NCBI GenBank assembly: GCA_030739735.1
Contig: JASLYQ010000021.1
Span: forward strand, 1-49,401
Reading direction: 5' to 3'
DNA length: 49,401 bases
Source of the DNA: Alphaproteobacteria bacterium
GTDB taxonomy: Bacteria > Pseudomonadota > Alphaproteobacteria > UBA7887
Positions 28,796-49,074 of the stretch are shown in pieces. The position numbers and the translations under genes were made by a program. The notes under the pieces are model-generated. The model did not search any database, had not been told where the DNA came from, and saw only the letters and a list, made by a program, of their open reading frames with translations. Position 1 is the first letter of the stretch. Each line of letters starts with the position of its first letter.

Positions 28796-30751
28796 TTAAT
28801 CTCTCAGATCCACACGGTCCCTATAGAGGTCGAGCGCTTGCGGATTGTCGAGCGCCTCGATGTTCTTAATGGTGCGGCCATGTACTACCTCGCGCACCGC
28901 AAGCTCGACGATCTTGCCACTCTTGGTACGCGGGATATCGGCTACCTGCAGCACCTTGGCCGGCACGTGCCGCGGCGTGCAGCCCTCGCGGATACGCGCC
29001 CTGATCTCCGCCGCCATGTCGTCGTCGAGGGTGAGGCCGTCACGTAGCTTGACGAACAGCACTACGCGCACGTCGCCATCCCAGTCCTGGCTGATGACTA
29101 TCGATTCCGCTACTGCCTCAATCTGCTCGACCTGCCGGTATATCTCTGACGTGCCGATGCGCACGCCGCCGGGGTTCAACGTAGCATCCGAGCGACCGTA
29201 GACGATCACGCCGTCGTGCTGGGTGAGTTCGACATAATCGCCATGGTGCCAGACGCCGGGATAGCGCGCGAAATAGGCGGCGCGATAGCGCGCGCCGTCG
29301 ACATCATCCCAGAAGCAGATGGGCATCGACGGAAACGGCTTGGTACAGACCAGTTCGCCCTTCTTGCCGCGGATCGGCCGGCCGGAGCTGTCGAACACGT
29401 CCATTGCCATCCCCAGAACGCGTGCCTGGATCTCGCCACGCCAAACTGGGCCGGTGGGATTGCCTGCCATGAAGCAACCGAGAATGTCTGTGCCGCCGCA
29501 CATAGACGAGAGACAGACGTCGTCCTTGATGTGCGCGTAGACGTAATCGAAGCTCTCCGGTAACAGGGGTGATCCGGTCGAGAGCACCGAGCGCAAGGCC
29601 CCCAGATTATGCGTCGATTTTGGGTCAAGGTTAGCCTTGGCTAGCGCGTCTATATATTTCGCCGAGGTGCCGAGCACGGTTGCTTGCTCAGCTTCTAGAT
29701 AGTCAAATAGGATATTAGCGTCAGGATAGAACGGTGCGCCGTCATAGAGCAGAAGCGTTGCCTCTGAGGCCAACGCCGAGACTAGCCAGTTCCACATCAT
29801 CCAACCACAGGTGGTGAAGTAGAACACGCGTTCGTTCGGTGTTATGTCGCAGAGCAAACGATGCTCGTTCAAGTGCTGCAGAAGTGTGCCGCCGACCCCG
29901 TGCACGATACATTTGGGCTTGTCCGTGGTACCGGAGGAATACATGACGTAAAGCGGCGTATTGAAGGGCACGCGGGTGTAGGCGATGTCGTCCGCCTTGT
30001 AGGGTGCGATGTAGTCGGCAAGCGACACCGCGTCGATATCTACCGACTTGCCAAGATAGGGTACCACGACGATGCGCTCGATTGTCGGCAGCTCGGCCGC
30101 GAAGGTCGCGACACGGGCGAGCGATTCGTGGCTTTTGCCGTTGTAGTGATAGCCGTCGGCGCAAAACAGCAGCTTGGGTTCAGTCTGGCTGAAGCGGTCG
30201 AGCACTCCCTGGTCGCCAAAATCGGGCGAGCACGAGGTCCAGGTTGCACCCAGCGAGGTGGTGGCGAGCATGGCAATGACGGCCTCCGGCAGGTTGGGTA
30301 TAAAGCCTGCCACCACGTCACCCTTGCTAATGCCGTCAGCCGCCAGTGCCTGGGCGAGGAGCGAGGTCGCGGCGTGCAACTCATCCCACGACAGCCGCCG
30401 CTTTACCTTATTCTCGCCCCAGAAGACGATGGCGTCGCCGGCGCCGCGACGGCGCAGCAGGTTCTCGGCAAAATTCAGCCTGGCGTCCGGAAAGAAGCGT
30501 GCGCCGGGCATGGCGTCCATATTCTCGATCGCAACATTGCCGGGCCCGTCGCCGATGACCCCGCTAAAGTCCCAGATCGCCCGCCAGAAGGTCTCGCGGT
30601 CGCCGACCGAGAAGTCCCACAGCGCTGCATAATCAGCCACGTCCACGCTCCAGTCGCGGCGCAGCGCGGCCATGAAGGCGGTTAGATTCGCGCTCTTGAT
30701 GCGCTCGGGTGAGGGCTGCCACAGTGGCTGCGGATCGTTTGACAGGGTCAT
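28796..30751 (-). CDS. acetoacetyl-CoA synthetase (acetoacetate-CoA ligase)
   Basis: This enzyme activates acetoacetate to acetoacetyl-CoA with ATP. The 651 residues carry the family signature [16 protein letters not shown] (about 87-102), the P-loop [41 protein letters not shown], and [37 protein letters not shown] is near the end. The length and the CGGTD motif distinguish it from acetyl-CoA synthetase. GGAGG-like GAGGAG lies 6 bp before the ATG. It diverges from the thiolase gene, whose enzyme would cleave acetoacetyl-CoA to two acetyl-CoA. Together they would use acetoacetate, a ketone body or polyhydroxybutyrate breakdown product. Confidence 0.94.
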
Positions 30752-30769
30752 TGTAACTCCTCACCTGGG

Positions 30770-30910
30770 CGGCTCGCACCTTGGGTCGATGGTTGCCATT
30801 CGGTATATCCAGCAAGGAAGTCAAGGGCTATGCCTCCACCTTGCGGATGGCCCTTGACTTCCTTGCTGGATATGCCACCCGCTCAACATCGACTCAAGGC
30901 GCTTCGAGCG
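30770..30910. repeat. large imperfect palindrome with perfect 24-bp core arms
   Basis: A 24-bp perfect inverted repeat (30805-30828 and 30850-30873, beginning atatccagcaagg) brackets a 21-bp centre. Outside it the symmetry continues imperfectly: ccttgggtcgatggttg on the left against ccttgagtcgatgttg on the complementary right side, and then ctcg blocks. Total span is about 140 bp. It sits entirely between the divergent acetoacetyl-CoA synthetase and thiolase genes, beginning 19 bp before the synthetase ATG. No T run follows, so it is not a standard terminator. It could be a MITE-like or REP-like element or a folded mRNA leader. Confidence 0.85.
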
Positions 30911-30930
30911 TTGTTGCTATCTTGGGCATC

Positions 30931-30986
30931 TCGCACTTGCACAATAAACTTTGACGCTTTTCGCACTTGCACCATTTATGTATAGT
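30931..30986 (+). promoter_or_regulatory. thiolase promoter with two direct repeats TCGCACTTGCAC
   Basis: The 12-bp word TCGCACTTGCAC occurs at 30931-30942 and again at 30961-30972, exactly 30 bp apart (about three helical turns). A sigma-70-like promoter TTGACG (30951-30956), 17 bp, ATTTAT (30974-30979) overlaps the second copy, which fills the spacer. The thiolase ATG is 60 bp downstream. Two same-face repeats around a promoter suggest a repressor or activator site. The regulator is not identified; PHB-type regulators recognising TGC-rich DNA are one possibility, not established here. Confidence 0.6.
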
Positions 30987-31038
30987 CGCGGCCGTCGTCG
31001 TAAGGGCGGGTTTCAGATTCAGCGGGAGAGATAGAAAC

Positions 31039-32226
<1,188 letters not shown>

Positions 32227-47905: not shown

Positions 47906-47981
<76 letters not shown>

Positions 47982-48010
47982 ATGGCGATGCGGACGATAC
48001 CCCGAGGCGC

Positions 48011-48751
48011 TTACGGCGACAAGCGGACGATCTCGTAAAGCGCAGCGCTGGCCGCGGCCGAGACATTGAGACTTTCCACGGCGTCGCCGATCGGCAGGCG
48101 CACCAGCTCGTCGCAGGCCTCGGCGGTCAGGCGGCGTAAGCCCGCGCCTTCGGCACCGAGAACCAGGGCCGAACGGCGTACCGGCGCAGCTTCGGCCAGG
48201 CTGCGCGTCGCGGCGGCATCCAGCCCAAGAAGCCAAAATCCCGCTTCCGCGACCTGGGCCAGGCTGCGTGACAGGTTCGTCACCCGTATCAGCGGCAAGC
48301 GCTCCAGCGCACCCGATGCAGCCTTGGCCATGGCACCCGATTCCGATGGCGCGTGGCGGCTCGGTAGGATTATCGCTGCGGCGCCGAAGGCTGCGGCCGA
48401 GCGCATCACCGCGCCAACATTGCGCGGATCGCTAACCCTGTCGAGTACCACCAAAGGCGCGTCGGTACCCAGGATGGGCGCGAGTTCGGCTTCAGGCAGT
48501 GGCTGCACCAGCGCCGCGACACCTTGATGCACGGCATCTTTCGGCAACTGAGCGGACAGTACCTCGGCAGTGACGATGTCGGCCCCGTCGGGCGCTATGC
48601 CCGCTGTACTCAACAGAGTGACGATACGGCGTTCCGGGTTGTCCACGGCGGCGCCAACGGCGTGGCGTCCATAGAGCCAATATGGCGCGCCCGTAGCACC
48701 GGTTTCGGGGGCTTGGCGGCGGAGCCATCTGCGGCGTTTGCGTGCTACCAT
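48011..48751 (-). CDS. rlmB: 23S rRNA (Gm2251) 2'-O-methyltransferase RlmB (SpoU/TrmH family)
   Basis: This SPOUT-fold enzyme methylates a ribose in the 23S rRNA P loop. The 246-residue protein begins MVARKRRRWLRR. It has an L30e-like substrate-binding half with WLYGRHAVGAAVDNPERRI. The SAM-binding knot is VVLDRVSDPRNVGAVMRSAA, LVLGAEGAGLRRLTAEAC and LPIGDAVESLNVSAAASAAL. The frame extends 7 codons further upstream. RlmB is the commonest assignment of TrmH-type genes in this tRNA-tuf neighbourhood; another rRNA or tRNA target is possible. Confidence 0.9.
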   Translation of the reverse strand: MVARKRRRWLRRQAPETGATGAPYWLYGRHAVGAAVDNPERRIVTLLSTAGIAPDGADIVTAEVLSAQLPKDAVHQGVAALVQPLPEAELAPILGTDAPLVVLDRVSDPRNVGAVMRSAAAFGAAAIILPSRHAPSESGAMAKAASGALERLPLIRVTNLSRSLAQVAEAGFWLLGLDAAATRSLAEAAPVRRSALVLGAEGAGLRRLTAEACDELVRLPIGDAVESLNVSAAASAALYEIVRLSP

Positions 48752-48805
48752 GGGAGAACCTACCTTTCGCATCGGGCCGCGACAACGGCATCAGCCCTAA
48801 TCCGG

Positions 48806-48833
48806 TTGACAAGCCCAGGCTAATGTCGATAGT
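48806..48833 (+). promoter_or_regulatory. promoter of the tRNA-Tyr/tRNA-Gly/tuf unit
   Basis: A perfect -35 TTGACA (48806-48811) is followed after 16 bp by GATAGT (48828-48833), a four-of-six match to TATAAT. The tRNA-Tyr gene begins 40 bp downstream. No other strong promoter-like pair was seen between rlmB and the tRNAs, so tRNA-Tyr, tRNA-Gly and tuf probably share this transcript. Confidence 0.68.
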
Positions 48834-48873
48834 CCGCTCATTTGCCCGACGGCCCTGACAACCGATTCGGCGC

Positions 48874-48959
48874 GGAGGGGTGGCCGAGTGGTTAAAGGCA
48901 GCAGACTGTAAATCTGCCGACGTACGTCTACGGAGGTTCGAATCCTCCCCCCTCCACCA
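48874..48959 (+). tRNA. tRNA-Tyr (anticodon GUA)
   Basis: An 86-nt cloverleaf with long variable arm, as expected of a class II tRNA. The acceptor GGAGGGG pairs with CCCCTCC, the anticodon stem is GCAGA/TCTGC with loop CTGTAAA (anticodon GTA), and CCA is encoded. It lies 41 bp before tRNA-Gly. Confidence 0.97.
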
Positions 48960-49000
48960 TTTGGCAAAGTCGGCTGTGGCCTGCGGGCGTGGCGTTTGCT

Positions 49001-49074
49001 GCGGGTGTAGCTCAATGGTAGAGCCCCAGCCTTCCAAGCTGGTTACGTGGGTTCGATTCCCATCACCCGCTCCA
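49001..49074 (+). tRNA. tRNA-Gly (anticodon UCC)
   Basis: A 74-nt cloverleaf starting GCGGGTGTAGCTC and ending CACCCGC-TCCA, with anticodon stem CCAGC/GCTGG and loop CTTCCAA (anticodon TCC). CCA is encoded. It precedes tuf by 47 bp, the order tRNA-Tyr, tRNA-Gly, tuf known from many proteobacteria. Confidence 0.97.

Follow-up and report, generated by a model that had tools for sequence, protein, structure and literature searches.

A low-copy palindromic repeat family with concertedly changing arms in an alphaproteobacterial genome, probably the decayed remains of a mobile element

The window analyzed here, i.e., the whole 49.4-kb stretch of DNA (contig C21 of the draft genome), contains an acetoacetate–CoA ligase (acetoacetyl-CoA synthetase) gene on the minus strand (28796–30751; TIGR01217 above cut-off) and an acetyl-CoA C-acyltransferase (thiolase) gene that starts at 31039 on the plus strand (TIGR01930 above cut-off). 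These matches bear out the gene names given in the initial annotation, which was made from the sequence alone. The intergenic gap between the divergent ligase and thiolase genes is occupied by a large palindrome. Neither a terminator-like nor a sigma-70-like site was found in 30600–31100, in agreement with the earlier remark that no T tract follows the palindrome. On the synthetase side, a Shine-Dalgarno-like sequence (AGGTGAGGAG; 30757–30766, minus strand) is separated by 4 nt from the modeled element and by 10 nt from its outer stem. Given that the element adjoins AGGTGAGGAG upstream, transcripts starting beyond the element would bear the hairpin immediately ahead of the ribosome-binding site. 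The palindrome probably sits in the synthetase mRNA leader, and a hairpin beside the Shine-Dalgarno sequence could possibly alter synthetase expression as a side effect.

The conserved unit, as delimited with the covariance models R1 and R2, spans 30770–30904 (135 bp; left end TTGCC, right end GCTCA; all features are given on the plus strand, an arbitrary orientation). It includes an imperfect dyad of 127 bp (30776–30902) with arms of 56 nt that are 79% complementary (30776–30831 and 30847–30902). The extended imperfect symmetry claimed in the initial annotation was thus confirmed, at a length slightly below the stated value of about 140 bp. From the foot upwards, the window copy consists of a 16-bp outer stem, an irregular loop, a 25-bp inner stem and a terminal loop. 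The outer stem common to the copies is formed by 30776–30791 and 30887–30902 (columns 8–23 and 128–143 of alignment A3). The aligned left and right ends revealed that the two sides of the internal loop, GTTGCCATTC (30792–30801) and ACCCGCTCAA (30877–30886), are conserved and non-complementary. The longest perfect arms, which arm search and folding placed in the inner stem, are 24 bp long (30805–30828 with 30850–30873), exactly as had been noted before, and their sequence is specific to this copy; dyad search and folding placed the terminal loop region at 30829–30849. The predicted RNA folds of 30740–30940 had energies of −102.6 (plus strand) and −95.4 kcal/mol (minus strand), with z-scores of −8.8 and −8.3 and none of 200 shuffled sequences as stable, while the 135-nt element folded alone had a z-score of −12.8. 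The palindrome is far beyond chance folding. Across the window, no second inverted repeat was found that is 22 nt or longer and has separate arms within 150 nt.

The initial annotation had suggested that further copies be sought in the genome, and dispersed relatives were indeed found at unrelated intergenic sites of the 2.64-Mb draft (69 contigs). In a DNA search, the element matched itself and its own reverse, and a single partial match turned up on C19; on reading, this match proved to share the outer ends and to lack the core. A left-end pattern with up to three mismatches matched 10 places, compared to none for the reversed control. Four of these were clear copies (C19, C21, which is the window, C6:50034 and C22:3451), two were probable left-end remnants (C12:17749 and C23:18533) and the other four, among them C14:8553, C2 and C6:34242, were dropped on inspection. 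The corresponding right-end pattern matched five places (control, none), namely the four copies and a right-end remnant at C25:32587. An exact spaced pattern with both ends had no match, since every copy deviates from the exact sequence at one end at least.

The covariance model R1, built from the four copies, found a fifth, previously unseen copy at C6:19691–19831 (E = 4.2e-7), whose inner stem is perfect and of very different sequence and whose foot carries the loop motif of the other copies. With R2, built from all five, E-values were 4e-30 or lower for the four full copies and 6e-11 for the short copy at C19. Thus, there are three full-length relatives beyond the window copy (C6:50023, C22:3339 and C6:19691) and a core-deleted one (C19:24680), and the full copies are about 127–145 bp long. 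Weak R2 matches at C30:18336 (E = 1.9) and C4:86120 (E = 7.9) had a recognizable right end on reading. A right-end model, R3, added a remnant at C17:62509 (E = 0.007); R3 had been seeded with C25, C4 and C30, whose scores with it are therefore circular. Further R3 matches on C15, C9, C25:35445, C22:23015 and C11 (E = 0.13–0.47) were not counted, although some of them resemble decayed right ends. Several of the one-ended remnants are individually weak. The genes flanking the copies have nothing in common, and all relative orientations occur: divergent in the window and at C19, convergent at C6:50023 and C22, and co-directional between mnmE and mnmG at C6:19691.

Outside this genome, the family was not detected. 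No match was found in 40 relatives by DNA search (0/40), and R2, at a threshold of E ≤ 0.01, detected none in eight genomes of the same family. Three R2 matches in one relative (G003) had E-values of 0.6–1.2; two of them were inspected as sequence, and none was accepted as a copy. Among 385 genomes of the class, R2 detected the family in its own genome and in none of the other 384 under strict filters with eight candidates scored per genome, a search that could miss diverged copies. A plasmid search gave short matches only, with E-values of 0.1 or worse. Searches of viral contigs gave five and zero matches, and the five, which are without the right end, were taken as chance. An exact search of genome contigs with an inner-arm 21-mer gave two matches that lack a dyad and were likewise taken as chance; both lie in a shared reading-frame stretch, apparently a single gene, of contigs from two related deltaproteobacterial MAGs (L004:1086–1106 and L005:4397–4417).

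Thiolase orthologues could be identified in the family; in the seven relatives' loci examined, no synthetase gene lay within 1.5 kb of the thiolase gene, and no such dyad was found in the thiolase upstream regions of six relatives. The mnmE–mnmG pair, examined in seven relatives, is adjacent in six, and the hairpin occurs in none of these six mnmE–parS–mnmG spacers. A parS-like sequence (TGTTCCACGTGAAACA; C6 near 19.65 kb) directly follows mnmE and neighbors the C6:19691 copy, and parS-like sites are found in the mnmE loci of all seven relatives, at the same place in most. By the refuting condition set in the initial annotation itself, this speaks against the regulatory reading offered there, as relatives do not have the element conserved alongside these genes; a hairpin in the synthetase leader would still be physically feasible. 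A single-copy regulatory dyad was rejected, given the related copies at other loci and the absence of the dyad with the genes in relatives. The gene-specific guess therefore gives way to a dispersed repeat family.

Alignment A3, which comprises five sequences with four full copies, so that its covariation rests on few, revealed how the hairpin has been kept. Standard pairs occupy 87.7% of its 187 paired cells, compared to 74.0% in shuffles, and two-sided changes occur in 20 of 43 pairs, compared to 7.6 in shuffles; neither value was reached by any of 500 shuffles. When partners were slid by 1–3 columns, pairing fell to 29–42%, although R2 takes its structure from the folds of these same sequences, which favors this structure over the slid versions. 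The register was taken from individual folds, as the consensus fold derived from a MAFFT alignment missed the inner stem. The 16-bp outer stem is paired in 88.8% of cells over the five copies and constitutes terminal inverted repeats, as in MITEs. Whereas the stems covary, the unpaired bases of the internal loop belong to the best-conserved positions.

The window and C6:19691 copies are an unusually clear case of concerted arms. They differ at 11 of 25 positions in the left inner arm and 10 in the right, yet each is fully complementary within itself; 10 pairs have changed on both sides and one on one side, which was matched by none of 100000 random placements. The two other full copies pair at 19 of 24 and 17 of 25 positions in the common register, G–U pairs counted. 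Such concerted change requires either that the folded strand be selected for or that arms be copied by template switching, and template switching can create and maintain perfect stems (excerpt of PMC8794818), the homogenization of arms by this process being described in the excerpts of PMC8794818 and PMC8604942. Arm copying through the irregular loop would have erased its irregularity, which suggests that selection probably acted on the foot. The copies provide a small natural data set of long hairpins whose arms stay perfect through a complete change of sequence, and they bear on whether compensatory change in bacterial hairpins originates from selection or from template switching.

A formerly mobile, non-autonomous palindromic repeat would leave just such traces: dispersed copies with conserved ends, deletions of the core, remnants of one end and no copy in relatives. 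Most probably, the palindrome belongs to a low-copy, genome-restricted, non-autonomous palindromic repeat family that once spread intergenically and has now largely decayed. It would have moved as a mobile element with the enzyme supplied in trans. The outer stem and irregular loop may have been the recognized part, by analogy with the irregular stem of REP hairpins, and the inner arms could have been kept complementary by template-switch arm copying, by selection for the folded strand or by both. The family is new, of an ordinary known kind and well supported.

The initial annotation had also raised a MITE/REP-type element. Dispersal and absence from relatives agree with that suggestion, while strict membership is not supported. 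The target-site duplication that it had proposed to look for was not above chance at the five copies (183–461 of 500 shuffles were as good), and neither TA termini nor a GTAG/CGTC tag was found in the aligned ends. Among the tabulated pattern matches, no two ends enclose an interval of transposase size and no parent transposon was found. A transposase search with PF01797 identified a single Y1/REP-type gene in the 69-contig draft, at C27:25972 (L016:1189–1881, minus strand), which scored above cut-off with PF01797 and below it with NF047646 (68.9 bits; cut-off, 80). Its flanks carry none of the palindrome ends by eye, and no model match was found on C27. We noticed GGTGACAGTCACC and GATGACAGTTACC in these flanks, both unlike the palindrome family.

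Part of the evidence could be read differently. The conserved unpaired loop bases, together with the covarying stems and the position of the window hairpin against the synthetase Shine-Dalgarno sequence, would suit a functional class of structured RNAs or single-stranded DNA hairpins, kept for their fold and acting in cis in leaders and 3′ regions, in which the basal loop would bind a protein or ligand and the inner stem would need only to pair. Such a class is improbable here, as the neighboring genes are unrelated, the strand of the element relative to them is not constant and one-ended and core-deleted remnants are common. The hairpin is, moreover, absent upstream of the thiolase orthologues in six relatives as well as from whole relatives' genomes, and no Rfam match reached the gathering score. 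With Rfam 15, the only matches above that score in the window were three tRNAs, and the five loci at E ≤ 5 gave only sub-threshold matches, those at the hairpins being to eukaryotic miRNA stems. An element specific to the ketone-body genes, be it a bidirectional intrinsic terminator or an operator, is scarcely credible, even if a large dyad between divergent genes might at first point to it: there is no T tract, no terminator was predicted in 30600–31100, divergent genes need no terminator between them, the relatives have neither the dyad nor a synthetase gene within 1.5 kb of the thiolase gene, and the copies adjoin unrelated genes.

The arms could also be a mutational artifact alone, i.e., ordinary dyads sharpened by template-switch replication (quasipalindrome correction) and devoid of any mobile history. 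Of the four full copies, two have inner arms that match perfectly or almost so and the other two show partial decay, as random correction would give, and arm homogenization of this kind is on record (PMC8794818 and PMC8604942, in excerpt). This account is nevertheless very improbable as the whole answer, as it leaves unexplained both the shared ends at unrelated loci and the conserved, still irregular internal loop. Template-switch correction is more likely to be a contributor.

The form of the copies also invites comparison with integron attC sites, which have a conserved foot, extrahelical asymmetry and a variable, self-complementary core, range from 57 to 141 bp, and carry the conserved core boxes RYYYAAC and GTTRRRY. 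The palindromes resemble them in foot, asymmetry, core and size range. In contrast to attC sites, they lie between housekeeping genes, and membership was rejected because RYYYAAC/GTTRRRY are not conserved columns in the ends of alignments A4 and A5 by eye. A genome-specific folded-strand mobile class that shares attC- or REP-like logic with unrelated sequence, whose enzyme would read the foot only (the outer stem and the fixed irregular loop) and leave the distal stem free to change completely as long as it is paired, is a doubtful possibility.

The closest literature comparisons appear to be ERIC, YPAL and RPE, as portrayed in excerpts of PMC2229807 and PMC2267715; the likeness is to their published descriptions rather than to consensus sequences. 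ERIC (IRU/RU-1) of enterobacteria is a non-coding, intergenic element of 127 bp that forms one long stem-loop, with shortened variants known and no known autonomous transposase in the portions of PMC2267715 and PMC2229807 available. The present family resembles it in all these respects (size of about 127 bp, intergenic location, long stem-loop, lack of coding capacity, shortened variants and no known autonomous transposase) and differs in that neither the TA termini nor the target-site duplications reported for ERIC (PMC2229807, in part) were seen here. Like YPAL (RU-2) of Yersinia (about 168 bp), it is palindromic and intergenic, is not A+T-rich, has internal inverted repeats and lacks TA termini, according to the same excerpt of PMC2229807, which however describes YPAL as recently mobile with target duplications of 3–26 bp, while none were seen here and the copies look old. 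RPE of Rickettsia, also of the Alphaproteobacteria, shares the size range (105–146 bp), the long stem-loop and the dispersal of palindromes (PMC2229807, in part). RPE is known for in-frame insertion in genes, whereas the present copies are intergenic. The likeness to REP/TnpA-REP (RAYT) systems lies in the conserved irregular loop and in the one RAYT-type gene of the genome; in group 2 REPs, the recognized feature is a stem interrupted by a conserved bulge (PMC8266576, in part). REPs are, however, 20–40 bp long with a GTAG or CGTC tag (PMC3733652, in part), while the palindrome unit is 127–145 bp and untagged, and the RAYT gene is without palindrome ends. A text search of titles and the beginnings of abstracts, rather than a sequence-based one, found no paper describing this family.

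Elsewhere in the window, three tRNA genes lie near its end (47909–49071). Upstream of the thiolase gene, we noticed a direct repeat, TCGCACTTGCAC, at 30931–30942 and 30961–30972, within 20-nt units that are 85% alike at a spacing of 30. By eye, a resembling arrangement (TTTTCGCA..TGCACAA..TATAG) is found upstream of the thiolase orthologues in two relatives (G002 and G003). The direct repeat resembles a conserved promoter or operator of the thiolase gene, distinct from the palindrome.
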